From: Tyto alba
Lineage: Eukaryota > Chordata > Aves > Strigiformes > Tytonidae
Direction of reading: 5' to 3'
Assembly (NCBI RefSeq): GCF_018691265.1
Contig: NW_024881313.1
Span: 13,279,001 to 13,343,000 of the forward strand
DNA: 64,000 nucleotides
Position 1 is the stretch's first letter; each line of letters begins with the position of its first letter. Of the stretch, positions 3,001 through 41,957 are shown piece by piece. Made by a program: the position numbers and the translations under genes. The notes below the pieces were generated by a model. The model was not told the DNA's origin and made no database searches. It was given only the letters and a program-made list of their open reading frames with translations.

Positions 3001-5019
3001 AGGGTGGAAGGGGCATAAGTCATGCTAGTCACTAATCATTGGTAATATTACTTGTGTTATTTCATACATAAGTTTGCAGTATCAGGCAGAAGCAGTATAC
3101 TCATAGAGCCAGATCCAAAACTACTGGAATCATTAGAAATCATCACTGAGTTCAGGGATTTCTGGATCAAAGCATCAGATGTTCTAACTAGGAAAGTAAA
3201 TAACATCTGGTTTTCAATCAAGGATGCTGTGTTGGTTATATTTTAAGTAAGTGACTCTTTACTTTTCTTTCTAAATAAATAATATAATTGTAATATATAT
3301 ATTATATGCATATATATATTTTTTTTATTTACAGGTGGTTCCAAGAACTGAGGCTACTAGATCACTTCTTTCCTCGTATTATTTTGGCTGTCAGCTCTGC
3401 TGGTAAAAGATGTTTTCTGAGCCTAGGGATCTTGTCCCACTATCACCAAAGTTTAAGGAAATATAAAGCAAAATAACATAAGCATATTTTACTTATCAGC
3501 TCTTCAAAAGTTCAGCAAAAAACAAGAACAATCACAAGCACACACAATAAGAAACAACCAGACTACACACACACAAAGAAGCAACAAAGGTCTTCATACT
3601 TTAGTTTTTTCATCAAGTCTGATTTAGAAAATGAAATTTGAGGAAAATAGGGCACTAGTATCATTTTTATCTGGTAGGATCCCAGAAAGTAAAAACGCCT
3701 AATTTCTCCCTCTTCAACAGTCTGCAGATGTGGAAAGAGCAGATCATCTTTCCATGTACTGGCCAAGCTGTCACTGAAGTGATGAAACTGATTCACAGGA
3801 GAGGTGATACGCCAGAGGTCACTGGCAGAAGTAACGCATGAACAGACAGGACAGAGACCAACTAGTGGACAAATCATTTCACAGCAGACTCAGGGGGCAA
3901 GGAAGCAAACATCACTAAACCAGTTCTTAGAGGGGAAAGACAGGGCACCTGGAGAGATGGATGCACTGTGCAAGGCAGATGAACGTCCCTGAGACATTTG
4001 TCACTAGTTGGACTGCGAGACACTGACATTAATGAGGGTGGCATTTGGAAGATAAAAGCAATATCTCTGAAGCAGACAATACAGTTTCCAGGCACCGCAC
4101 ATGGGGACATGTTGTAATCAAAAGGGAATGGAAAATGTTCACGTCTAGCAAAAGCATCACCATCGCTACTGATATTCATGGGAGAATATGGATCAGGAAT
4201 AAATGGCTCATGGTTTTGTCTAGAGGATTGGTGGGGATTGTGGGTTGTTTTTCTTCTCAGTCCAGTCAATTCCCATCACATTCCTTTACTGAAGGACTCT
4301 CCATCAGTCATCCACTTACACCTGCCTTGTCAAAAGTCAGTGTTTCATTGACAAGTGCTTTTCAGGCAGCAGACCTCTAGAAGACAGCTCAGTCAATAGT
4401 GAGTGGGGATTTACAGTGGTGGAGGCACTTGGCTGTGATTATCTCCTCTTGAAAACAAGGAGGAAGCTGGGAGATACCCTGAGCTTTGGCTATCGAGACA
4501 CAAGCAAGTGGAGGGAGCAAGATCTGGCTGCCTCTCAGAGGTGTCTCAGAGTGCCACTACTCCAAAAATGCCATCAACTATGTATGAGAGCCACTCCTGC
4601 CATGACCCATGGGATAAGAAGTGTCATTATTAATTAATCACTGCCTCTTCTCACATCTCAGTGTCAGCCGTGTCCCACAGCCCATTTTGACTCCAATGCT
4701 CTCAGGTGTCTCTCTCCAAAAGGAGAGGATGGTGTGCAACTGGGATAGAATTAGACAAACCCAAGCATCCTGGAACAGCCTTCCTGATCCCCATGCTCAC
4801 CCTGCCAAGGATCTTAGATTATTAAATCCAAGATCCCACCCCTGTTGCCCTCCACACTCATGTATTACCCCTCTGGTCAGTTTTTGCCCAGAAGATAAAA
4901 CAGCTGCTTCGCCATTGAAAGAAAACCAGTCAGCAGCAACAGTAAATACATCGATCTGCTGGTCCACACACCTACTTCTTCCTTCAGGAAAACTAACGCA
5001 GGCAGCCAAACCGCAAGTC
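1..5019. other. AT-rich noncoding DNA, first part seen of the NXPH1 intron
   Basis: No coding exon could be supported on either strand. On the minus strand this lies downstream of the NXPH1 signal-peptide exon and so is inferred to be intron. I looked for the large second coding exon, which should appear as a minus-strand frame of about 250 codons with the conserved neurexophilin core, and it is absent. Simple sequence includes a T run at 290-308 and an AT-alternating patch around 3280-3330. Open frames such as 1577-1843 and 4045-4380 have no recognisable domain. Confidence 0.6.
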
Positions 5020-5180
5020 CGGATAGGGTTGCGGGTGAGGTCTGAGCAGCCGTGGCCCGAAACGCGGACCAGCCCGGGGCCGGGAGCCGGGGAAAGAAGC
5101 GGGGAAATAAAGAAGCGGGGAAGGCGGGAAAGTGGGGATCCCAAGGGCCGGTGCGGGGGCGGGAGCGGGAGCGGGCCCGG

Positions 5181-5223
5181 GCGCTGTCCGCGGTGCTGGC
5201 GCCGGGCGCTGTCCGCGGTGCTG
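5181..5223. repeat. Direct repeat of an 18-bp GC-rich unit
   Basis: An identical 18-base unit beginning GCGCTGTCCGCGG occurs at 5181-5198 and again at 5206-5223, a 25-bp period. It lies just before the 15-bp array in the same island and probably arose by local slippage. Confidence 0.9.
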
Positions 5224-5244
5224 CAGGGCGCTGCCGCGGGGTCG

Positions 5245-5319
5245 GCCGAAGCGGGGGGCGCCGAAGCGGGGCCCGCCGAAGCGGGGGGCGCCGAAGCGGG
5301 GGGCGCCAGCTCGGGGGGT
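5245..5319. repeat. Minisatellite, 15-bp unit, about five copies
   Basis: Units of the form GCCGAAGCGGGGGGC start at 5245, 5260, 5275, 5290 and 5305. The second copy has a CCC variant at its end and the fifth is diverged. Because 15 is a multiple of three, every frame stays open, which explains the Ala/Gly/Glu-type and Arg/Pro-type repetitive frames seen on both strands. Confidence 0.9.
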
Positions 5320-5439
5320 GCGCCGGCGGCCGGGAGCCCCTCAAAGGCAGCCTTGTCCCAGCCCCTGGCCGCTGTCCCCGCAGAGCCCGCACTAGCCTTC
5401 CGCGGCTCGGAACATTCAGCGTCCCCGAAGGGGTGGGGC

Positions 5440-5484
5440 GGGGGGGGGGGGGGGGGGGGGGGGGGCGGGCGGAAAAACACACTT

Positions 5485-5524
<40 letters not shown>
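5440..5524. repeat. Adjacent homopolymers: G run (26) and A run (32)
   Basis: Positions 5440-5465 are an uninterrupted run of 26 G. A short spacer containing a small T run follows, and 5493-5524 is an uninterrupted run of 32 A. Exact lengths of such tracts are unreliable in any assembly and likely vary between individuals. Confidence 0.95.
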
Positions 5525-5527
<3 letters not shown>

Positions 5528-7260
5528 CGTGGACTAACCGTGCGCTGAGGAAAGTTTTAGACGCGGATCCAGTAATCAACAGGAAAATGGGAACCCAGAC
5601 TAACCGGACATGTAATAAGGACAAGTTCTTTCTGCTCCCTCTTTAATGCTGCATACAGAGTGCAGCTCCACGTGTGAAGGTGCCCACGTCCCCGTCCTGC
5701 TGCAGAGTACCGAGCGTCTGCCCGCTGTCCTTCAGTGGCGCCTCTCTCTCTTCTTCCATTTAAACATTGAAAGAGAACGGGGAAGTGATAGAAGAAAGCT
5801 GACTGAATCCCTCCTTTAATCACAAACAAGCACAGCAAGATGGATTCTGGGAAAAGAAGCTGTATTCCTAAACAGCGACCGGTGTCACAGTAGTTAAAAT
5901 AGAACAGAAAAGCCTCTCACAACGTCAATTCTTATGTAGATGAGGCGACATAAGAGCTTTTCTCTCTCTTTGCCGGTTTAGTGAATTTCTAATTTGCCCA
6001 AAGAAGCCCTAGAGGAATGAGGAAGAAAAGGCGGGAATTGGGATTGCTAGTCGTAACAAACATTACCCTGCTCTGGATTGTCGCCTAGAAATATACTGAA
6101 AATGAGGGGATCCAGCGTCACTGTCTCAGCCGAGTTATTTCTCTTGACCTTCGGCTTTGTCCATCCAGGCTGAACAAACTTTCTGTAATGAGCATCGCCC
6201 CTGCTGTCTGCCAGACACACAACTTTGGTCTCTCTAGGTCGCAGAAAGGGAAGGAGAATGAGAGGCGGTTTCCCCTCCAAAAGAAGGGCACTCACAGGAG
6301 TTTAAACAACAGGCAGAAAAACGTAGGGTTAAACAATAAACTAGGAAATATGCTGTCCTGTTGAGCAGAGAGCAGTTTCCACAGCATTGAGAATCCGCCA
6401 ATATATATCATATCAATAAAAAGGAGCTCTTCGAAAGCTTGCATAGTAATTGAGATTGGAGATCTTTTTTGATATGGGTTGGCATTTCCTCATATCAATC
6501 TGACAGAGCCAACTCAGGAAATTGCTGGTAATATTCATCTGGGGAGCACTTTCATTAAACGTAATTCATTCGACTTTCACAATAAATTGAGTGACATCCT
6601 TACAGCAGAACCTTTTTATCCTTGATGAAGTGCTTGCCAGCCTTTGGTTTTCCACTTTATTGTCACATTCCTTAAAGCAGAATTGTCAACATGTCAATCT
6701 GCTGCATGAAAAAAAATGCTAAAGCTGTATTTACAAAGCACCCAGGAGGTGGTTTAATGCTGACTTACAAGAAGAGCGAGCTGGGTGTTAAACTATCTGA
6801 TAAATCACAGCATAACTTCACCCAAACCCAGTCGGGAGAACAGAAGCCAATCCTAGGGAGGGAAGGATGGCTCACACATTCATTTTCTCCAAGTGCTGGC
6901 TATTCCAACCAATTGGTTTCTTAACCTGCTTCACCGCACTTTCCAAGACGACTGGGAAATTGGCTTTTTGTTAATTAAAATGGCGGTTTAGAGACGCAGG
7001 GAAATATTAAAGAGCTTAAAATGGATACCCCTAGGTACCGACTTGGAAGATTTGGCTAGTCAAAGAGAGGCGGGGATATTGGATTATATTCAGGTGCATC
7101 CCTAAAAGGTGAAATCTGTTCCAGAGTGCTTTCTCCAGCGATTTAAGAAATTAAAATAGTGTGTATTAAGCACCGGGGAAAAGATATTTCAGTGCGAGGA
7201 AACCCCTTCTTAAACTCCTAAAACAGGTCCCTGGTGGTTAGGAAGGAAGGAAGAAGGAAG
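5525..7260. other. AT-rich noncoding intronic stretch, possible conserved element
   Basis: No gene was found. The portion around 6340-6620 is free of simple repeats and recognisable transposon sequence and is rich in TAAT, CAAT and ATTA-type homeodomain-like cores, the look of a conserved noncoding element near a developmental gene. That is an impression from composition only; conservation cannot be seen from one sequence. Confidence 0.4.
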
Positions 7261-8099: not shown

Positions 8100-8950
8100 A
8101 AGGCCTCCAAACTGCCGTGACGGTGTGGAACAGACCTTAAAATCCCCGGTCAGCACGGGGAGGAGGTTAGCAGGCTGTTTCCACGACTCTCTGCCAAATG
8201 CCATCGCCCTGTAAAACAGGGGCACCGGGACCCCCGCAGTTGTGGACACTCGCCAGACAAAGCTCCCCCCGCGAAACACCCTGCTCGCATCCCTCGTCGG
8301 GGGGTGAAAAATCACCCCCCCTCCATTTGCTCTTGCGCTGCTTGAATTCTGCACGGAGTTAAAACTGGCTCTGCCAGTCAGCTCTGCTGTATATCCTAAT
8401 TTACAAAGCCACCGGTGAAGAAACACTTTGCTGGGAAAGGACGACAAGCCGGGGCGGGGGGGAGGGGAGGGAGGGAAGGGAAGGGGCTGACGGAGGAGGG
8501 CTCCTTACCCTAGCAGCATGCAACGCAAAACTGCGACTGGTTTTAAGTCCGTACCCGCTACTCCGGGAAAGAAGTACCTAAGTAGTGAGCTGAAGTCTCT
8601 CCAAACCGGGGCGATCCCAGCGGAAGAGGGGCATGTTCTCATTCCTTGCTTGTGCCCGGAGGGAAGTTCCCCCTGGAACATGCAAAGGCAAAGCCTGTGA
8701 ACACGGAGGGAGGGGGATGGAGGGGAGGGGGGGGTGTTAAAATCCTGCAATCTGGAAGGCATTGTGCCGCCCGGCGCCCTGGGCTTGCCCGAGGGGTGAG
8801 CGGGGTCCGGGCGGGGAGCGGCAGGACGGGGCGAGCGCCCGCCGCCGCCGGGAGCCCGCCGGTCCCCTCCCGCCCCACGCGTGCCCTCAGCAGCCGGCAC
8901 GGAAAGGATCTGCCTCCTCCTTTGGGACCATCCTGGACCTGTCCCGGTGA
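8100..8950. promoter_or_regulatory. CpG-rich island in the NXPH1 intron
   Basis: GC- and CpG-rich by eye, densest at about 8700-8890. A purine-rich G/A stretch lies at 8450-8500. On the minus strand a donor-like CTAGG|GTAAGG has its exon-side boundary at 8509. Frames open on both strands have Arg/Pro/Ala-rich composition typical of CpG-island artefacts, and I see no protein domain. Function as an alternative promoter or enhancer is inference. Confidence 0.5.
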
Positions 8951-9037
8951 GAAATAACCAGTTAGGATCTTTGCCGGCTCTGCCAGCAGCCCGCGCGTTT
9001 TGTAGTCGCTTGTACACCATGCTGCTCCCACCCAGGG

Positions 9038-9069
<32 letters not shown>

Positions 9070-9080
9070 TACATATATAT
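9038..9080. repeat. Poly(A) tract followed by (TA)n microsatellite
   Basis: About 16 A at 9038-9053 run directly into alternating TA/AT dinucleotides up to 9080, with a single C interruption at 9072. Confidence 0.95.
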
Positions 9081-9752
9081 GAAAAGAAACAGCCTGGCGT
9101 TTTATTGTCCTGTGGTATAAGACTGGAAATTCACCGGTAACTAGGCAGGAATTAAACGAGAAAGTTTCCATTAAGGGAATGGTGTAAAAACCTGGTGTCC
9201 TTATAAAAAGACAGAGCTCAAACCTGAAAGAATCTACGATCTCCGAGTTGTTCTTCTTTCTTAATATTTACGTGTTTCCTTAATGGCGATTTTGAGCTCT
9301 GCACAGTGCTGTTAGTTAAGAAAACATTATCCATTAGAATAGGACTAAGGTGCTTTTGAAAGAACAGCGGTGAAGTGGAGTCTCGTGGTAAATAAGACCG
9401 AGTGTAGCTGTTTGAACACTTTCGGCAGCTCTCTAATGTAAAGAAAGAAAATAACTGCAAGCCTTTAAAGATTAACTCCTAATTCTACCAAGTAAATACT
9501 AAGTTATCCGTTTAGGCCAAAGGAAATGCAGTTCCACCGCAAATCAAATATAACGTTTTCAAAACACTGCACAGCTCGAAACAAGGAGAAAATGCGTGTC
9601 TCACCGAGGCTAACTAATGTTCTTATCAATAAACCATCTCTACCCCAGCAAAATTCCTACTCGTTCTGGTCGGCCGTGACCTCTATAAATTTCAGGCAAT
9701 AAGGCTGGATGGCACATGGCTCTATTAAAAAGGGGGAGAAAAGCAGAAGCAC

Positions 9753-9837: not shown

Positions 9838-10451
9838 GAAAAGAGCAGTGGTTTGCTGGGTGAAGAGAAATTACAAGCCAGCGACTGTCTGTAAATGAGG
9901 AACTTCGAGGCAGCTTCGCTGCGGCTCTTCCACTATCACTCAACACCGCCTGGTTCAGGAGGAGGGGAAACATGCTATTTTCCCTCTCCCCTGTATTATT
10001 AACCCCTCTCAAAGTAAAAGAATTTTTTAACAAACTCGATAGGAAGCTGGGTTTGCCCCCATTTCATTTACCCTTCCTCACAGGTTGGGTACTCAAAATC
10101 TAATTCCAAATTGAAACTGCTTCTCATCCACCCAGAGCGAGGCGTAGACACGGGTGGGCACAGCGAAGTGCTGCACCTTGCTGGTTTGTGGCACCGCTTT
10201 AATCAAAATTTCATTCTTCGATGCTAATAAACAGTTTATTGCCAGGCAGTGGCCTAATAAAAACTTTCAGAGTCACTCTCGAAATACAGAGAATAGGGAA
10301 AGATTGGCATAAACGTGGAAGTATCGACTCTGAAAGAAGAATCGGGTTAGACAGGGAAATCCTTTGGATCGCCCCCGAGTGTTTTGGCAGAACGCACAGC
10401 CCAGCCGAAGAGGGCGTCCCCTCCCCCTAGCTTGTCTTTTATTCCCGATTC

Positions 10452-10559
10452 TTTTTTTTTTTTTTTTCTTCGTATCATATTTCGCATTGTTTCGAGGATG
10501 ACTGGAATTTACTCTGCAATGACAAGCCTTCGGAATAAAAAAAAAAAAAAAAAAAAAAA
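10452..10559. repeat. T run (16) and A run (23) pair
   Basis: Positions 10452-10467 are T and 10537-10559 are A on the plus strand, separated by about 70 bp of ordinary sequence. This repeats the T-then-A arrangement seen 700 bp earlier. Confidence 0.95.
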
Positions 10560-10876
10560 GCGCAAGCATTCAGGTAATGAAGTCTGTAACTAAACGGTAA
10601 TTGAATCAGCATAATTTGCACACTGAATGGTTTTCAAATGCTCCCAGTTTACAATTAAAGGAGAATTAATGCGCTTGTTGTTCAGACTGCAGCGCATTAG
10701 AATAAATCCAGCACTGTTGTTGTAATGAGTCGAGAGCAGTTTAACTGCCAGCAAACACATTTAAAATTTAACACGACGTATCGATCCCGCTCCGGCTTTT
10801 TGATAGATTATTTGCCACGCACTTTTTCTCCCCGCTCCCCCCCCCCCCCATCCCACCCACCCTCCCCACCTCCGGC

Positions 10877-10883
10877 TATAAAA
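10877..10883 (+). promoter_or_regulatory. Plus-strand TATA box (possible antisense promoter)
   Basis: A canonical TATAAAA sits in GC-rich DNA directly after a C-rich tract, with GC-rich purine sequence where a start site would fall, about 28-32 bp further on (near 10905-10912). This resembles a focused TATA promoter firing on the plus strand, antisense to NXPH1 and within its intron. No ATG-initiated protein follows closely, so a product would more likely be a noncoding RNA. Expression cannot be judged from sequence. Confidence 0.4.
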
Positions 10884-11190
10884 CTCGCGGGGAGAAGAGA
10901 CGCCCGCCGCAGACGTGGCACCGCCCGGCGAGGGCAGGGGCCCCCAGCCGGGAGCCCCGTCGGCCGGGCCGGGCGGGACCCCCCCACCCCGGCGCTGCGC
11001 GGGTGCGCTGGGAGCTGAGCGGCCGCGGGAGGAGCGCGCCGCCCGGTCGGCCCCCCCCCCGCCGCCCCCCCCTCCGCTCACCCCCCCCCGGCCGGGCCCG
11101 CTCGGGATTGGCTGCCCCGCGCTCCGCCGCGCTGCCCCGCAGCGCCCCCAGGCGGCACGGCCGCCACAGCGCAGGGAGCGGCGGCGCCCG

Positions 11191-11262
<72 letters not shown>
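11191..11262. repeat. (CGGAGC)12 hexanucleotide array
   Basis: Twelve perfect tandem copies of CGGAGC occupy 72 bp inside the CpG island. Being a multiple of three it stays open in all frames: Arg-Ser, Gly-Ala and Pro-Glu type dipeptides on the plus strand, and Arg-Leu and Gly-Ser types on the minus strand. It lies about 0.8 kb into the NXPH1 intron from the signal-peptide exon and would be transcribed as a GCTCCG repeat in NXPH1 pre-mRNA. Length is probably polymorphic. Confidence 0.97.
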
Positions 11263-11264
<2 letters not shown>

Positions 11265-12077
11265 CAACCGGGCCGTCGTTTCCCCCCGTGCCGGGCTCCT
11301 CTAGGCCGCCCTCCTGGAAAAAAAGGCTTTTCCCTCCCCCGCCGCCACGGGGTCGAGCTCCCGCCAGGCGTTTGCCTGCTTAACGCGTCGCAGGCGACCG
11401 AGGGTACGGGCTGCAAAGGAGCAGCCTTGCCTTGTTTTTGTTCTTTGCGGTTGTAGAGGGAATAAAGTGTGTGTGTGTGTTAAAGGAGATAACGCCGCTG
11501 TTTACTCGTGTTCCTCCGGTAATCTTAAAGGAGATTTGCAACGAAAGTCAATGACACTTCACCCGGAAAATACCAGCTGTGCTCGTCACCGAGTGCCTGC
11601 ACGCCTGTGCTGCGCCGCCCGTAGTGGCACAGTGGAGGGGGGTGTCCCTTCAGGAGGGGCTCCCACCCTCAGGAGGGAGCAAGAAGGCAAGAAGTTGCCT
11701 CTATCCCACAGCCTGGGCGGCGGCGCGCCGGTGGCCCCGCAGGTACCGGGGGACCCGGCCCGGGAGGTGGCACCGGGGGACCCGGCCCGGGAGCCCCCGA
11801 CCTTCCCCTCTCCCGGTGGCGCGCCCCTTCCCCGCGGAGAAGTTACGGGTGTCCTCCTTGCACCCCCACCCCCACCCCGCCCGCGCCGCGCCCCGCCGAG
11901 AGCTCCCGGCCGAACCCCGCGTCTCCCCGGCCCGACCCCGGCCCGACCCCGGGAGGACGGGGCAGGGCTGGCTGCGGGGCGCCGGTAGTTGCCGTGAGTT
12001 TGTTCATTCTCCGCCAGGCTGGTGCCCTCCTCCCCGCCGAGCTCCCCCCTCCCCGAGCCGTGCGAGGGGTCGGGGGC

Positions 12078-12083
12078 ACTCAC
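12078..12083 (-). other. NXPH1 exon splice donor GTGAGT
   Basis: Read on the minus strand, the exon sequence ...TACCTG is followed at once by GTGAGT, a full match to the intron side of the donor consensus with the favoured G as last exon base. The break falls in phase 0 after Leu18. The human NXPH1 N-terminus continues with Val-Thr-Cys at the equivalent point, which would begin the next exon outside the window. Confidence 0.85.
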
Positions 12084-12137
12084 CAGGTAAAGGGTGGGCT
12101 GCAGCAGAAGGACCGCGTACCAGTACACAGCCTGCAT
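12084..12137 (-). CDS. NXPH1: Neurexophilin 1, first coding exon (signal peptide), partial
   Basis: This exon encodes 18 residues, MQAVYWYAVLLLQPTLYL, then ends at a GTGAGT donor in phase 0. The peptide matches the start of vertebrate neurexophilin 1; from memory the human protein begins MQAACWYVLFLLQPTVYLV, identical at 12 of 18 positions. Neurexophilin 1 is a secreted, N-glycosylated, proteolytically processed protein that binds the LNS2 domain of alpha-neurexins at synapses. Only the signal peptide is here: a short n-region and a hydrophobic core (residues 8-12). The propeptide, glycosylated core and C-terminal Cys-rich domain belong to a later exon beyond position 1, so the following intron exceeds 12 kb. 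The start is supported by A at -3 and by an in-frame TGA at 12147-12149. The exon is too short for a standalone search to be decisive, but residue identity, donor position and CpG-island setting agree. NXPH2, as I recall it, starts quite differently. Confidence 0.85.
12087..12092 (+). other. Plus-strand donor-like site opposite the NXPH1 donor
   Basis: The plus strand reads CCAG|GTAAAG, with the exon-side boundary at 12086. This is a fair donor match that sits within the NXPH1 exon, a few bases from the minus-strand GTGAGT. If a plus-strand transcript starts at the TATA box near 10877, this could be its first donor. It may equally be chance. Confidence 0.2.
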
Positions 12138-12245
12138 CCTCGCCGCTCAAACTTCCCCCGCGCTGCCTTCGCTGCCTCTTTGTTCCTTCCAGAACATAGA
12201 TCCACCTGACATCCACTTTACAGAACCAGCAGAGCTCTCACCAGC
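12138..12245 (-). other. Inferred 5' UTR part of the NXPH1 signal-peptide exon
   Basis: Upstream of the ATG on the minus strand the best 3' splice site is a pyrimidine-rich TTTCATTTTGTCTAG followed by G, giving an exon start at 12245 and a total exon of 162 bp (12084-12245). A weaker alternative AG (ATGTCAG) lies about 40 bp nearer the ATG. The acceptor call is inference; the exon could also be the transcript's first exon, with no acceptor. Confidence 0.4.
12147..12212 (-). CDS. Upstream ORF (21 codons) in the NXPH1 leader
   Basis: An ATG at 12212 opens a 21-codon frame (MSGGSMFWKEQRG at its N-terminal end) ending at TGA 12149-12147, nine nucleotides before the NXPH1 ATG and in the same frame. 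A second ATG at 12197 lies inside it in frame. If the leader includes this stretch, scanning ribosomes meet two AUGs before the signal peptide, and efficient use of the main start would need leaky scanning or reinitiation over a very short gap. The frame also rules out an N-terminal extension of NXPH1 from these AUGs. Whether it is translated is unknown; its peptide resembles nothing I recognise. Confidence 0.5.
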   Translation of the reverse strand: MSGGSMFWKEQRGSEGSAGEV

Positions 12246-12326
12246 CTAGACAAAATGAAATTATAGACCCCATGACCACAAGACAAGGTTAGGCTTGAGA
12301 CAAGGGGGGAAGAGGTGTGTAGGGAA

Positions 12327-12342
12327 GGGGGGGGGGGGGGGG
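12327..12342. repeat. G run (16) in a purine-rich stretch
   Basis: Sixteen G inside G/A-rich sequence from about 12301 to 12380, followed by an A run of about 14 near 12385-12398. On the minus strand this is a C/T-rich tract just upstream of the inferred acceptor. Confidence 0.9.
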
Positions 12343-13207
12343 AGAGAAGGAGGAGATGGGGTGTGTGGATGGGGGTGGGGAAACAAAAAAAAAAAAAACG
12401 ATTAAAATCGAGTTAATCCAGCGTCAGAGCAAAGTGATCGCACGGTCCGGGCTGGCTGCAGAGCGCCTGTAGGCAGCGCTCCCCGGCGTTCAGTCCTTTT
12501 ACTGGGCGTGAGAGCCCCGTGGTGTGGGCTGGGACGGCCCGGGGGTGCCACCGCCAGCCCTGCCCTGCCCGCCCTGCCCGCCCGCCTGCCTGCGCGACCT
12601 CGGCGGGGACCGGGCGGCAGCCGCCCGGCAGTCGGTGGCCGCGGAGCCCCGGCAGCGCGCTGGGGAGCGGAGCGGCGCTGGCGCGGAGAGAAGGGTCAGG
12701 AGGAGACGCCGCGATCGGATGCTCCTGGGCGCTTCAAGCCGAGGCTCCGGGACGCCCGAGCAGGCTCTGCCTTACCCCCACAGGCGCCCACCTCCCTCCG
12801 CCGCTCCTAAGGCTCCCCGTGCCTTGCTCCGGGCCGGGACCGCGCCCCGGGGGCGCCCCGACGGGCGCGGACCCCCATCCCCGGCCCCCAGCCCTCCTCC
12901 GCCCCCGCGCCCCGCGGACAGCCCCGCCGCCGCGGGGGGGCCGCGGCGGGGATACGTACGGCGTGGGGGGTCCGACGGCGGCCGGGGCTCCGCGGGGCGC
13001 TCCATGGGCGAGCCTAGAGGGGCTGAGCGCCGCGGTGCAGCCCGCCGACCCTGCGCATCTCCTCGCCGCGCTCCGCACCGAGGTGTCCCGCGGCCGCTGG
13101 GCATCCGGCGCAGGCACTGTCGGGGCGGCGGGGCGGCTGGCAGGCTCTCCCCCCCCTCGCCTCCCCTTCTCCGCACACGGCCGCGCTCCGGCTCCGCCGA
13201 GCAGGAC

Positions 13208-13213
13208 ACTTAC
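13208..13213 (-). other. Candidate donor of a noncoding NXPH1 first exon
   Basis: The minus strand reads CCC|GTAAGT, a perfect intron-side donor consensus though without G as last exon base. Paired with the acceptor at 12246 it would define a short (about 1-kb) 5' UTR intron upstream of the signal-peptide exon. Other minus-strand donor-like sites in the block are GTAAGG with first base at 12775 and GTACGT near 12955, so the choice is uncertain. Confidence 0.35.
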
Positions 13214-13313
13214 GGGAGGAGGGAGCTGCCCGGGCTGCCCGCTCGCCTTCGGCGGGGGGCGCGGGCAGGAGCGGCGGCACCGGCGCTCCGGGGCGTCCAG
13301 GGCGATTTGTCTC

Positions 13314-13333
13314 TATTAAAAATGACTTATTGG
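13314..13333 (-). promoter_or_regulatory. Candidate NXPH1 core promoter (CCAAT and AT-rich box)
   Basis: On the minus strand a CCAAT pentamer (13333-13329) is followed closely by an AT-rich TTTTTAATA (13323-13314) standing out from GC-rich flanks. A start site about 25-30 bp further on, near 13290, would give a short first exon ending at the GTAAGT donor at 13213. The spacing between CCAAT and the AT box is tighter than usual, and CpG-island promoters often start diffusely, so this is tentative. Confidence 0.3.
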
Positions 13334-13483
13334 CGAGGGAGCGGCGAGCGCCTGCTATTTAACTTCAGATAAAATCTATCTGCAAAGACCTTGGCCGATC
13401 ATCTTAAAATAAAGCGCTGGAGCCGAGCACTGTCCGAGCCTCACTGCTTGGGGAGAGAGAAAGAGCGGTGGAGGGGAGGGAGC

Positions 13484-13500
13484 GGGGGGGGGGGGGGGGG
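13484..13500. repeat. G run (17) in a G-rich purine tract
   Basis: Seventeen G, with additional G-rich sequence (AGGGGAGGGG type) continuing to about 13514. G-quadruplex potential on the plus strand is obvious from the repeated G blocks. Confidence 0.9.
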
Positions 13501-13640
13501 AGGGGAGGGGGGGGCTTGCTTGGCGAGGGTGGAAGGGAGGAGGGAGAAAGGGGAGTTTAGAGGCGTCCCATCCTCTCCTCTGAACGGGGTGATGAATCAG
13601 AGCCCTCCCCGGGCGGCGCGTGCTGCCTGCGCTGTCTGCG

Positions 13641-13715
13641 CTGCCTTGCGCTGCCTTGCGCTGCCTTGCGCTGCCCGCCCTGCCCGCCCTGCCCGCCCTG
13701 CCCGCCCTGCCCGCC
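13641..13715. repeat. Compound minisatellite: 10-bp units then 9-bp units
   Basis: Three copies of CTGCCTTGCG (13641-13670) pass directly into five copies of CTGCCCGCC (13671-13715); degenerate CTGCC-rich copies continue to about 13800. A related CTGCCCGCC-like stretch occurs at about 12558-12590. The 9-bp array keeps frames open and generates the spurious Ala-Leu-Pro and Cys-Pro-Pro frames seen here. Confidence 0.9.
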
Positions 13716-14936
13716 CTGCCTGCCTTCTTGCCTGCCCTGTCTGTGCTGCCTTCTCTGCGCGCCCTGCCCGTCCCGCTGCCCGCGCTGCCGGCTGGGGCAC
13801 AGCTCCTTTCCCTCTCCGCCAGCCCGCCGGAGCCGTCTGCCTGCCCAGCGCCTGGAAGGAGCCTGGGACAGCGCCTCTTCCCCCCTTCTCTCCTTTCATT
13901 TTAGTTTTTCCACCTCCCCCAGGGGTGTCCCGTGCAGCGACGGTGCTGCTGAAGCCTGTGGGGGCAGCGGGCGCCCGCCAGCCGGGCACTGAGGTGGTGG
14001 GAGCGAGGAGCGGAGCTGGGCGACGGCTGCGGGAGCCAAACTCTGAGATTAAAGGGTTGCTTCCCCCCCGCAAGCAGGAACCTGTAGCTGGACAGCCCCT
14101 CGGAGTGAAGCGAGCAAACTCATCCCTGCCCGGTGCTGTGGTTAATCCCGCCAGCTGTCACGCAAAGGGAAAGGTCTCGTCGACCTTGTTTTCCTCCTTC
14201 TAGGAGTCCGATGGGGTTTTTCCTGCCCTCCAAACCGTATCATTACCAGTGTGACATCGGGACAGGGTGAAGGGGAGGATACCAAGAGCACAGGGCAGCC
14301 TCACCAGGTGCCCAGCCTCGATAGCAAAACTCAGATTTATGGCCTCCCAAAGGGGAACCAAGAAGCAAGCCAGCATGCTGTACAGAGCGGGAAATGAGAG
14401 AGAAAAAGAGGACTTCAGTTGTCCTGCCAAATCCTTGTTTCCCTTAGAACACGTCCTGGTAATTAATATCTGCAATCTGAGGCTTCAGAACCAAGCTGTA
14501 AAATACTGTTTTAATTTGGGGGTCTGAGTTTAGAACACTGTAATAAAAGAGGAGCGTGGAAAGGAGGGGGAAGGTAATGAGTACTCTTTGAAAGGGCTGC
14601 ACCAGAGCCCCACACACAGTAATTTCTGGTCCAAACACCTGGAAGATGGACACCTCCATATGTCTCCAGCACCATGACTCTGCTAGGCATGTGGGATGCT
14701 CACGTCACAGCTTTGAACAGAAGTGTGCAGCCTGCAAGGAATCATATTGTCATCCTGCCCCTCCAGACAGCCTCTGCATTACAGCTCAGGCTAAAGCTGC
14801 CTAGGGACTGCGTTTCAAATGGGTAACAAAAAATCACAGCTAACTTTCCCCTTTCACCTCTCTCCTTCCTATCTATTCCACTGTTAATTCCCCATGAGGG
14901 GCTTTGTCCACACTTAGTAATTAATCTATAGACAGT

Positions 14937-14960: not shown

Positions 14961-15774
14961 TGGATGGATAGATGTTGTTCTTTTTGCATAGAACAAACTT
15001 GCCATAAACTGCATGGAGCATACTGCTAATCTTTGCAATAAGCTGCTGTTATATAGTTAGAGCCAGCATGGTTACTCTTACCTTAGATACGAGATTGCCA
15101 GGTTAATATGGAGCAGGGAAAGCAACACAAAGTCTGCTAGATTTCAGTGGGTCATATGCCTGATGAAGACACCACCTTTTCAGGAAGGAATAATTCAACT
15201 CTGCAGTCTGTGTGAGTTGTTTCAGCTTCTCCAAGGTCTGACCATTAATGTCTTTATATTGGACGTGACAAGGAAGTAGTCCTTGGAGAAGAATTACTCC
15301 TTCAGCTGGTCAGATAGAAGGTCCTCGCAGTCTTTCTCATTCAGATCATTGTATCTCATTTAGGGGACCATTGCAGAGGAACTCCTGGATCTTTTGGAAT
15401 CACAAGCATGGCTCCTTTTTGCTTCAGCCCACTAAAATTTCCTACCCCTGTGAATTCAGCAAGATATTCTACGAACAGCACGATCTTCTTGGTATGTATT
15501 TGAGTTGTCAGCAGGCTCCTGACACAAAGTTCTCAGGTACAGACGAACCTGTTTTTTGTCAGGTTGTGACTGATCCAAGGTCCCACTGGCTTCACTGAGG
15601 GTTTCTTTGCTTTTCAGCTGACCTCCTCAGACAAAGGCCACCGGGACAAACTCTTTAATTACAGTGAAACTGAGTTTTCCTTCAGAATTGCTGTTTGGAG
15701 TGCTCCTTCCCTCCACTGTCACTCCAGAAGAAAGGAGCAAGGAGCATATGGGAATCTGGATTGATCTTTTTCAT

Positions 15775-25599: not shown

Positions 25600-26672
25600 T
25601 GTTGTGGTTTAGGCCTTATTGGCAGCCAACCACACTGCAGCAGCTCTCTCTCCCTTCCCCTCCGGCAATGAGAAGGGACAGAGAGCCAAGTTTGGGGTTC
25701 AAGATAGGACTGGGATGGGGAAAAATTCCCCTTTTATGATCATGAGCAAAAGGCAGACTCGTTAGGGGAAGAAAAAAAGAACATACATTTATTACAGACA
25801 CTAACAACACATAACAGAGTAGGACAGTGAGAAGCATTGCCACATCTTGAGAACACCTTCCCCCCACCCCTCCCTTCTTCCCGGGCTCAGCTCTGCTCCC
25901 GATATCTCTACCTCCTCCCTGCAGCGGTGCAGGGGCAGGGAATGGGGGGTGCAGTCAGCACTGCCTCTTTCTCCATCTTCGGTGGGTGGAGTTTCTAGAA
26001 CTTGTTCCTCCTGCTCCATCGTGGTCCCCCTCTCACAGGAGACAGTCCTCCACAAACTTTCTCCGACTTGAATTCCTCCCACAGGCCGCAGCGTTCCCCA
26101 CACTGCTCTGTCATGGGTCACTAACTTCCTCCGACTGGATTCTCTCCCACGGCTGCAGCCCTTCCCGAGCTGCTCTGGTGTGGGACACCCCCGCATGCTG
26201 CAATCCTCCCAGCGCTGAATTACAGCAGCGGGGCTGCCTTTTCCCATGAGACCCCAGCCTTCTTCGGGCACAGAACCTTGATCATCCGAACAGGAACAAC
26301 AGGCCATAAATCAATGTCTGCTCCACTGTAGATCTTCATGGGTGGCAGAGGGGGGCCGCCCTGCCGTCTCCCCACAGGATACAGGGGGGTCTCTGCTCCG
26401 GCACACCTCCCCCCTCCTTTCTTCCTCCGTTCCTCCACTGACCTTGGTGTTCATGCAGCTGCAGCAACTCCTCCTCACAAGTCCCACTGCTCGTCACCAC
26501 GTCCCTTCTTAAATACATTATAGCAGAGGCGCAGCCGATTGGCTCAATTTCCCAAACAGAAGTGGAGATGACTTGGAGCTGGGGGAGCTTCGAGAAGCTT
26601 CTCACAGGGGTCCGCCCCGATAGCCCCCTCCCCTGCCACCAAAAAACTCCACCACTCACTCAACCCAGGACA
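25600..26672 (-). mobile_element. Solo LTR of an avian endogenous retrovirus, 1073 bp
   Basis: In minus orientation the element begins TGTCCTGGGTTGAGTGAG and ends CCTAAACCACAACA, so it has TG...CA termini. It is flanked by a perfect 5-bp target-site duplication AGAAG (25595-25599 and 26673-26677). Read in that orientation it carries CCAAT (26542-26538), a TATA-like TATTTAAG (26515-26508) and an AATAAA polyadenylation signal (25793-25788), the order expected of a functional LTR. No internal retroviral genes or second LTR are present, so it is a solo LTR left by recombination. The end sequences resemble an LTR group I know as common in neoavian birds; the exact family and class (ERVL- or ERVK-like) cannot be fixed here. 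Confidence 0.88.
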
Positions 26673-39200: not shown

Positions 39201-40769
39201 CACTTTGATGTAATCCCACTAAAACCCCAGCTTGGTGAAATTGCAGGTTACAATCCTACAGCAGGAGTTTGCAAATGTCATGGAGCACCCAGTCTGTGGG
39301 CTGGGAGCAATCTCCTCCTGCACCTCTCCCACAGTCTGGAGGAATTAGGATGTAAATAGTGAAAATTCTTCATCAACAGTTGGTAGAGATGGTGAGGAGT
39401 GTTTTAAAAACAGAGACAGAGGGATAGAAAAAGAAGGAACTCATCCCAGGCAGCCCTTGCTAGCAGGTGCATTCACACCAGGTGCTGGCTCTGTTCTCCA
39501 CTGACTCAATAAAATCCCTGTCTATAGCAGCAGGACGGTAGCAGTTTTTGCAGTGGTATGCAAATGCCTGGGTATATTTCAGCTTTATTTTTGTAGGGTT
39601 GATACTTGGGTGTATATCAACAAGACAAAAGGTGGGAAGAAGTGTCTTCCTGTTGTTTGCAAGGGATAAAACAGTCTGCACCAGCTTCCTGAGTACAGCT
39701 TTCTCACCGGCTGTACTGTCAGGTACCTGAGTGAGTGTATGGTACCTTCGCAGCTCTCTCATCGTCATTCTGGACATCTTCCTTGCTGGGCAGAGTTGCT
39801 TCCTAGAGGACTGATACTAGGGCATCTGGTCAAGTACCTGTGGTGCCAAGTCCTTGTGGCAGGCATTTCACCATTAAATTCTTTGTTCTCTCTGACAGCC
39901 ATGGTGGGGGCGGCTCACTGTCCAAAGTTTTGCTGTTTGCTTTGGCAGGGTAAGGATTCCCAGCACTGCTCTGTTTTATGACTCTTTTAGGATTAAGTGT
40001 CTGACTAACACAGCTTGCTACTTGTGCACCAAGACTTTTGTCCTTTTGCCTGTTCATTCCGGTACTGGTATATTTGCAAAGCATTATGAGGTTGATTGCA
40101 ATTTTCTTACAATGATAAATATGGAATAGTTAAATCTGCCATGGACCTTTTAATCAATATCTCTGCCAATTTTCCTGCTGTCCCATCAGGCTGTTCATAG
40201 TATGGATTTGATGTAATATGCTTTAACTAATATAGCAAAGAAAAGCATTGTTGGAACATAAGACTCCCATGACCTCTCTCAACCCCAATCAGGACTCCCC
40301 AAACTCCCTTATTTCACACTGCAAGGAGTCAGATGCACAATAGTAAGTTATCAGCTCCTAAAACAGAATACTAATCCTTCACACTCACTCATTTTCTCCC
40401 CTTTTATTCACAAACCACTCCAGGTAGTTTTCTACTCTGAACTGCCCACTGTTCTTTTTCTACTCCCCCATCTGCATTCTCAGAGCAATACATCATTTCC
40501 TTTCCTAATCATCTTTTCTTATCCAACTTTTGAACTCAAAAATATTCTGTGCATTTTTGGATTTGCTAGTCCATCTTTTTCTATTAGTCCACCCTGCTCA
40601 CTGGCACTTTTAGGTCCTCACATCTTTATAAATACCAGGAAAACTGAGGGGTTTAGCATATATGCTTTATTCCCCAACTTAGTGTTAGGAGTCTATATCT
40701 GTATTACTAGGGATGTGAACTCTGCAAAACACCTTCTTTCCTCATCTCCTCATTGTTTAGATTAGATTA
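27231..40769. other. Gene-poor 5' flank, middle part
   Basis: No exon, RNA gene or recognisable transposon was found in about 13.5 kb. Open frames such as 32239-32523, 34774-35148, 35752-36123 and 39460-39777 lack domains, conserved motifs or good splice context. Repeats noted are a 50-bp-period duplication at 32707-32776, a GATGT-type short repeat near 31903-31920, T runs near 36970-36985 and a short ATCATTTTTTGAG duplication near 37085-37125. Confidence 0.5.
32707..32776. repeat. 50-bp-period duplication in an AGTAAG-rich tract
   Basis: The same 20 bases, GAGTAGTAAGCAGTAAGAGA, occur at 32707-32726 and 32757-32776. The sequence between them is also made of degenerate GAGTAA/AAGAG units. Confidence 0.92.
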
Positions 40770-41957
40770 TTCAGATGACTAACATCATCTGCCTGGACTT
40801 GTGCAAAGCTTTTGACACTGTCTCACATGACATCCTTGTCTCTAAATTGGAAAGACATGGATTTGATGGGTGGAGCACTTGGTGGATAAGGAATTGGCTC
40901 AATGATCGCACTCAAAGAATTGCGGTCAATGGCTCAATGTCCAAGAGGAGAGCAGTGATGAGCGGCGATCCTCAGGGGTCGGTATTGGGACCAGCGCTGT
41001 TTAACATCTTTGTTGGCAGCATGGACAGTGAGACCGAGTGCACCCTCAGCGAGTCTGATGATGACACCGAGCTGTGTGTTGCAGTCGACACGCTGGAGGG
41101 CAGGGATGCCATCCAGAGGGACCTGGACAGGCTGGAGAGGTGGGCCCGTGTGAACCTCATGGAGTTCAACAAGGCCAAGTGCAAGGTCCTCCTGCACATG
41201 GGTCAGGGCAATCCCAAGCACAAATACAGGCTGGGCAAAGACTGGATTGAAAGCAGCCCTGCAGAGAAAGACTTGGGGGTATTAGTGCATGGAAAACTGA
41301 CTGTGAGCCAGCAATGTGCACTCGCAGCTCAGAAATCCAGCTGTGTCCTGGGCTGCATCAAGAGAAGTGTGTCCAGCAGGGCGAGGGAGGGGATTCTCCC
41401 CCTCTACTCTGCTCTCATGAGACCCCACCTGCAGTGCTGTGTCTACCTCTGGGACCTCCAACATCAGAAGTACATGGACCTGCTTGAGCAGGTCCAGAGG
41501 AGGACCACAAAGGTGATCAGGGTGTCGGAGCACCTCTACCATGAAGACAGAGTGAGTGAGTTGGGGTTGTTCAGCCTGGAGAAGAGAAGGCTCTGAGTAG
41601 ACCTTATAGCGGCCTTCTAGTACTTAAAGGAGGGCTAGAGAAAAGATGAGGAGGGACTCTTTATCAGGGAGTGTAGTGGTAGGATGAGGGGTACTGGTTT
41701 TAAACTGACAGAGGGTAGATTTAGATTAGATAGAAGGAAGAAATTCTTTACTGTGAAGGTGGTGAGACACTAGAAGAGGTTGCCCAGAGAAGCTGTGGCT
41801 GCCCCCTCCCTGGAAGGGTTCAAGGCCAGGTTGGACGGGGCTTTGAACAACCCGGTCTAGTGGAAGGTGTCCCTGCCTGTGGCAGGGGGGTTGGAACTAG
41901 ATGATCTTTAAAGGTCCCTTCCATCCCAAGCCATTCTATGTTCTTATGATTCTATGA
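40770..41957 (+). mobile_element. CR1 LINE copy, 5'-truncated
   Basis: A 5'-truncated chicken-repeat-1 retrotransposon. It begins inside the reverse-transcriptase domain and runs through the 3' end, with the typical C-terminal segment, the hairpin-like untranslated region (TTTAAAGGTCCCTTCCATCC) and an ATTCTATG-type octamer tail at about 41933-41957. As usual for CR1 there is no poly(A) tail and no obvious target-site duplication. It is the best-preserved transposon in the window. The copy cannot move, being truncated and mutated. Confidence 0.95.
40775..41596 (+). pseudogene. CR1 ORF2 remnant, reverse-transcriptase domain
   Basis: An open frame of 273 residues covers most of the CR1 reverse transcriptase: [12 protein letters not shown] (about residues 10-21), [12 protein letters not shown] (37-48), [17 protein letters not shown] (63-79), the catalytic region ESDDDTEL (93-100), then the thumb-like portion ending LFSLEKRRL. 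The family consensus at the active site, as I recall it, is FADD; here F is Ser and A is Asp, although the two catalytic aspartates remain. The usual SGVPQGS is SGDPQGS. The frame then stops at TGA, while further homologous sequence up to about 41870 contains additional stops. It lacks the N-terminal endonuclease. The enzyme is therefore inactive, and this is not a host gene. Confidence 0.9.

Follow-up and report, generated by a model that had tools for sequence, protein, structure and literature searches.

Neurexophilin-1 is described in two papers as a protein that loses its pro-domain by cleavage at a polybasic site and then, in its mature form, attaches to alpha-neurexins through their LNS2 domain (PMC6856630, PMC4183798). 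The brain gene that encodes it, NXPH1, has also been connected with the repressor REST: one table lists it with other genes that contain an NRSE and are repressed following seizures (PMC4129437), it is among the genes with REST sites in neural stem cells that go up when dominant-negative REST is present (PMC2573930), and an NRSE of human NXPH1 is placed at chr7:8,476,565-8,476,895 (PMC10257853). In chicken, a selection-sweep table contains a row (chr2:24.84-24.88 and 24.92-25.08) that lists ICA1/UMAD1/GLCCI1 together with NXPH1 (PMC13064311).

In the 64,000-nucleotide stretch of Tyto alba DNA analysed here (the window), positions 12137 to 12084 of the minus strand read MQAVYWYAVLLLQPTLYL, that is, 18 codons followed by the phase 0 donor CTG|GTGAGT, with the 5' splice site GTGAGT at 12078 to 12083. 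A human NXPH1 sequence served as the lead query of a database search, which returned 856 proteins; each of the 120 that were listed was scored by the ungapped placement of the 18 exon residues that gave most identities, and nine of the listed proteins were examined at full length. All 18 residues are identical in P0003 (Mergus octosetaceus, a cluster of 92) and in P0004 (Phaethornis superciliosus, a cluster of 23), both named neurexophilin-1 and both starting with these very residues. Identity is 16/18 in the lizard entry P0046 and in white shark P0030, 14/18 in opossum P0034, and 13/18 in Xenopus P0028 and in P0001. Among the 127,894 18-codon frames of the window, exactly one scores 18 and every other scores 7 or less. 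Furthermore, P0003 matches the exon by tblastn with an E value of 2.7e-8, obtained with composition correction off; the alignment is 33 columns long and extends beyond the donor. Judged by these matches, the segment is almost certainly the signal-peptide exon of an NXPH1 gene transcribed from the minus strand, and as such it is the ordinary start of NXPH1.

The affiliation with NXPH1, as opposed to its paralogues, is seen on 18 residues. Entries named NXPH2 or NXPH3 (P0109, P0110, P0112, P0113, P0114 and P0119) reach 4 to 5 of 18, which is a weak discriminator because 4 to 6 is likewise the score of NXPH1 entries whose N-termini differ, and no entry named NXPH4 occurs among the 120 listed. Two further bird NXPH1 models, from swan and sparrow and discussed below, have 5' exon matches that link the window to NXPH1 independently of the signal exon. 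The human sequence matches PDB 6pnp (Neurexophilin-1) over residues 117 to 271; NXPH1 turned up in solved structures as a single sequence (6pnp, 6pnq), and as its match begins at residue 117 it does not reach the exon. A solved-structure search with the exon peptide itself gave nothing meaningful (best E = 7, AlgM1), and Pfam assigned no family to the peptide or to its open frame, as expected for a signal peptide. The ten most hydrophobic residues of the peptide, AVYWYAVLLL, have a mean value of 1.99, and the segment encodes the bulk of the signal peptide; the cleavage site of mammalian NXPH1, which we take to be at about residue 21, would thus lie beyond the intron that follows the exon.

The position of the exon boundary can be read from the database entries. 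The string VTCANL is present in 30 of the 120 listed proteins: in 6 of them it stands at residue 19, straight after the exon residues, as in P0003 and P0004; in P0002 the exon residues precede it after a longer lead; and in the other 23 it is preceded by other N-termini. Such other N-termini were found in seven of the nine proteins examined in full (P0009, P0020 and P0022 to P0026). Since NXPH1 entries switch sequence at this one residue, an exon boundary falls at the donor of the window, in phase 0. Among the eight bird-named clusters, six carry other N-termini and have one member sequence each, compared with 115 members in the two canonical clusters. In one of the variant entries, P0009, the stretch ...FFLLPFFLFQ before the boundary looks like a translated polypyrimidine tract followed by CAG. 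When the 120 listed proteins of the 856 were compared with the window by tblastn, no match to the neurexophilin core (PF06312) was found within it; 24 of the 847 resulting rows lie on the exon, and the best 12 of the 823 off-exon rows, with E values up to 0.001, come from the N-terminal parts of P0024 and P0025 and from short low-complexity matches of P0065 and P0053. We infer from this that the core exon beginning with VTCANL lies outside the window, across a long intron that runs past position 1.

Upstream of the start codon, the sequence has the appearance of a 5' untranslated leader (12138 to 12245, minus strand). Residues 89 to 113 of P0002 match 12222 to 12148 in a shifted frame with 46.2 bits, this being their best place in the whole window, and none of 500 shuffles of the exon reaches that score (the best gave 18.9). 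P0002 is judged to derive from a spliced transcript, since it holds the signal peptide and the core in one piece, and its sequence is of mammalian type; its residues before MQAACWY and after PYFPSG may be translated untranslated region, with W perhaps standing for a TGA codon. Three neurexophilin entries, P0002, P0014 and P0018, run on beyond the usual PYFPSG end with a W and unrelated tails, a TGA stop perhaps having been taken for tryptophan by the gene caller of the source. The leader match starts 23 nt below TTTTGTCTAG|G, which makes it likely that an acceptor stands at 12246, with the putative 3' splice site TTTCATTTTGTCTAG at 12246 to 12260; a longer gapped match of P0002, of low similarity, extends past TTTTGTCTAG|G to 12327. 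The exon would then probably span 12245 to 12084, or 162 nt, of which the leader takes up 108 nt and the coding part 54 nt, with the acceptor-like TTTCATTTTGTCTAG before it and GTGAGT after it. The sequence-only reading had proposed an 18-codon exon carrying the N-terminus, within the span 12084 to 12245; the 18 coding codons and their consensus donor hold as described, the VTCANL entries bearing out the phase 0 boundary. Lizard P0026 also aligns here, its residues 57 to 100 falling on 12222 to 12082 with the exon apparently in a shifted frame, but the E value of 3e-7 fades to 0.045 with composition correction, so this match is not relied on.

Within the leader, a possible upstream open reading frame of 21 codons (12212 to 12147, minus strand) reads MSGGSMFWKEQRGSEGSAGEV up to its stop codon; it shares the reading frame of the NXPH1 start, 9 nt short of which it ends, and any function is conjectural. 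Position -3 is occupied by T at the ATG of this frame (12212) and by A at the NXPH1 ATG. Further upstream, a candidate exon 1 at 12504 to 12665, collinear with residues 1 to 82 of P0002 (28.5 bits), was rejected, as 32 of 500 shuffles of 12246 to 14250 equal its score.

The signal exon lies within a CpG island of 3.7 kb (10551 to 14250; GC 0.68), where the observed/expected CpG ratio is 0.82 as against 0.33 for the whole window. The stop-to-stop frame of the exon measures 186 aa, and two frames on the plus strand, 194 and 214 aa long, overlap the exon, so that ORF calling would miss it. The description of an exon placed in a CpG island and swamped by longer frames thus proved accurate, as did the assignment to NXPH1 and the minus-strand orientation, on which the peptide, its donor and the swan and sparrow counterparts agree. 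An array of 14 copies of the hexamer CGGAGC occupies 11191 to 11275 of the same island.

We rechecked the off-exon matches of the 847-row tblastn table by using the N-termini of seven entries as queries (P0009, P0020 and P0022 to P0026). A 5' exon in the swan model of NXPH1 (P0025, residues 18 to 93) has its counterpart at 15309 to 15082, at 43% identity and E = 4e-13 (composition correction on); the match ends TCTAAG|GTAAGAG in phase 0. For the sparrow NXPH1 model P0024, residues 1 to 41 and 44 to 74 match 10487-10353 and 10342-10250, respectively (together 10250 to 10487; E = 1.3e-10 and 8e-9, composition correction on), and residues 191 to 217, the last piece of the 5' exon, match 8589 to 8509 (70% identity; E = 1e-5, composition correction on), ending GCTAGG|GTAAGG, again in phase 0. 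All these counterparts are on the strand of the gene and in order, and the swan and sparrow matches stop, at the donors of 15082 and 8509, exactly where P0025 and P0024 continue with VTCANL. The last sparrow piece is overlapped by a second CpG island (8351 to 9200; GC 0.57, CpG observed/expected 0.70). A tentative counterpart of residues 14 to 28 of the manakin NXPH1 model P0023 was found at 5650 to 5606 on the minus strand, followed by GTTAGT (E = 0.01 among the seven N-termini), whereas the N-termini of turkey P0020, Pitangus P0022 and ibis P0009 have no match in the window at E 0.05 by tblastn.

The frames of the window contain stops, one within the swan match and another where the last sparrow piece (8589-8509) begins, and database searches with the swan (1 to 93) and sparrow (1 to 217) N-termini returned each entry itself and no other. 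With stops in the window and N-termini that recur nowhere else, these are not conserved proteins; the swan and sparrow counterparts resemble either alternative 5' exons without coding function or artefacts of gene modelling, with models built on transcribed flank. Either way, since the 5' exons of P0025 and P0024 map inside the window, the earlier division of the sequence around the signal exon is too simple. The exon does fix the locus and its strand, as had been claimed; the plain intron below it and the upstream flank above it both need refining, with a putative acceptor just above 12245, the swan exon at 15309-15082, and the sparrow pieces at 10487-10250 and 8589-8509 inside the supposed intron.

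A pair of RE1/NRSE-like motifs, both on the minus strand, lies at 5180 to 5200 (2 mismatches in 19) and 5205 to 5225 (1 mismatch in 19), as scored against the 21-bp consensus, which they match closely. The two are 25 bp apart, 6.9 kb below the donor of the signal exon and inside the presumed intron, and they are surrounded by a CpG island (4751 to 5800; GC 0.60, CpG observed/expected 0.81) that also holds the tentative manakin counterpart. In 300 shuffles of this island, no site arose with 2 mismatches or fewer, and one shuffle of the 300 gave a site with 3. The human NRSE mentioned above presumably lies about 3 kb below the human NXPH1 start. A limited literature search on NXPH1 and REST/NRSE yielded no report of an NXPH1 RE1 site in birds.

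Elsewhere in the window, an open reverse-transcriptase frame of 276 aa (40766 to 41596, plus strand; RVT_1, E = 9e-18) is present, which we take to belong to a CR1 LINE of birds, and a two-copy tandem repeat of 68 bp (26051 to 26177) falls in a 1-kb stretch of higher GC. The reverse-transcriptase frame, the exact agreement of the exon with bird entries and the swan and sparrow matches all speak for bird DNA. Scans for tRNA genes and for Rfam families at the gathering threshold returned none across the window, and a human ICA1 sequence, used as an approximate query, gave nothing in the window (best E = 9.6).

Different explanations of the signal exon can be weighed against these data. That the peptide arose by chance within GC-rich spurious frames might be suggested by the shortness of the exon and by its place inside longer open frames; the agreement of 18/18 residues, against 7 or fewer in every other frame, refutes this idea, and we give it virtually no credence. 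It could also be supposed that a duplicated or orphaned copy of the first exon of NXPH1 is at hand, which is not part of a working gene, as the absence of the core exon from the window would allow. We regard this as very improbable, given that exon, donor, leader and acceptor are all intact and that the flanks of about 7 kb on either side hold counterparts of other bird NXPH1 5' exons, so that a large segmental copy would be needed. A simpler arrangement of the working gene itself deserves more attention, in which transcription starts in the CpG island and reads straight into the signal exon, without an upstream intron, the region above being plain flank. It fits with the continuation of the island to 14250, with the failure of the candidate exon 1 in the shuffle control, and with the swan model, which splices its upstream exon to the core and not to the signal exon. 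Nevertheless, the placement of TTTTGTCTAG|G just above the start of the P0002 match, and the lack of a significant match of P0002 residues 1 to 82 above it, make this arrangement unlikely in our judgment, and an upstream intron is preferred.

A further doubt concerns the swan and sparrow 5' exons, which might be artefacts of automated gene modelling with no promoter behind them. Each N-terminus was found solely in its own entry, and the window encodes no signal peptide in these frames, which contain stops; on the other side, both matches end exactly at conserved in-phase donors (GTAAGAG and GTAAGG), and the last sparrow piece sits in a CpG island. We consider the chances of such an artefact to be nearly even, falling slightly short of that. 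A bolder proposal, to which we attach a distinctly smaller although appreciable likelihood, is that several alternative 5' exons of bird NXPH1 follow one another along a single strand within about 10 kb (at 15.1-15.3 kb; the signal exon at 12.1-12.2 kb; at 8.5-8.6 kb in a CpG island of its own; and perhaps at 5.6 kb in the island of the tandem RE1 sites), each spliced to the same core, so that promoter choice would set the signal peptide and secretion, with REST gating the set.

Taking the working gene with an upstream intron as a basis, a sequence of events may be outlined. At least one non-coding exon would lie upstream and be spliced to 12245, and the signal exon would be spliced over the long intron past position 1 to the exon starting with VTCANL, while further 5' exons, non-coding here, might mark alternative promoters. 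The residues of the signal exon would direct the NXPH1 precursor into the secretory pathway, the pro-domain would be cut off at the polybasic site, and the mature form would bind the LNS2 domain of alpha-neurexins. REST acting on the putative RE1 pair at 5180-5225 probably helps to keep NXPH1 transcription neuronal, at least in part. These results leave the knowledge of the main NXPH1 product as it was before. Their value is rather that the signal exon names the locus and the strand of a window otherwise devoid of labels, so that intron and flank can be read correctly, and that the swan and sparrow counterparts and the paired RE1 sites provide specific, testable points on NXPH1 promoter choice and neuronal restriction outside mammals.

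Compared with the bird NXPH1 proteins P0003 and P0004, the window presents the same 18 residues, the same start codon and the same boundary before VTCANL, with no difference detectable in this exon. Mammalian P0001 shares 13/18 residues and the boundary, with substitutions at residues 4, 5, 8, 9 and 16; as the window agrees with white shark P0030 at all five of these positions, the changes probably occurred on the mammalian side. In mammalian-type P0002 the leader matches in a shifted frame, and the different relative frames of leader and start in P0002 and in the window imply an indel between them. With respect to white shark, identity amounts to 16/18 in the signal exon, 14/26 in residues 19 to 44, 43/61 in the pro-domain and 151/154 in the mature part, whereas with respect to P0001 it is 13/18 in the signal exon and 25/26 in residues 19 to 44; P0001 thus shows the opposite of white shark, and stronger conservation of the signal exon is not a general rule. 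In P0034 and P0046 the mature part scores 123/154, and both lack the usual PYFPSG end. The 5' exons of swan P0025 and sparrow P0024 have counterparts on the same strand of the window with phase 0 donors, yet the N-termini of these models are not encoded in it. Finally, a near-consensus RE1 near the 5' part of the gene is common to mammalian NXPH1 and to the window, where such motifs form a pair at a distance of 25 bp.
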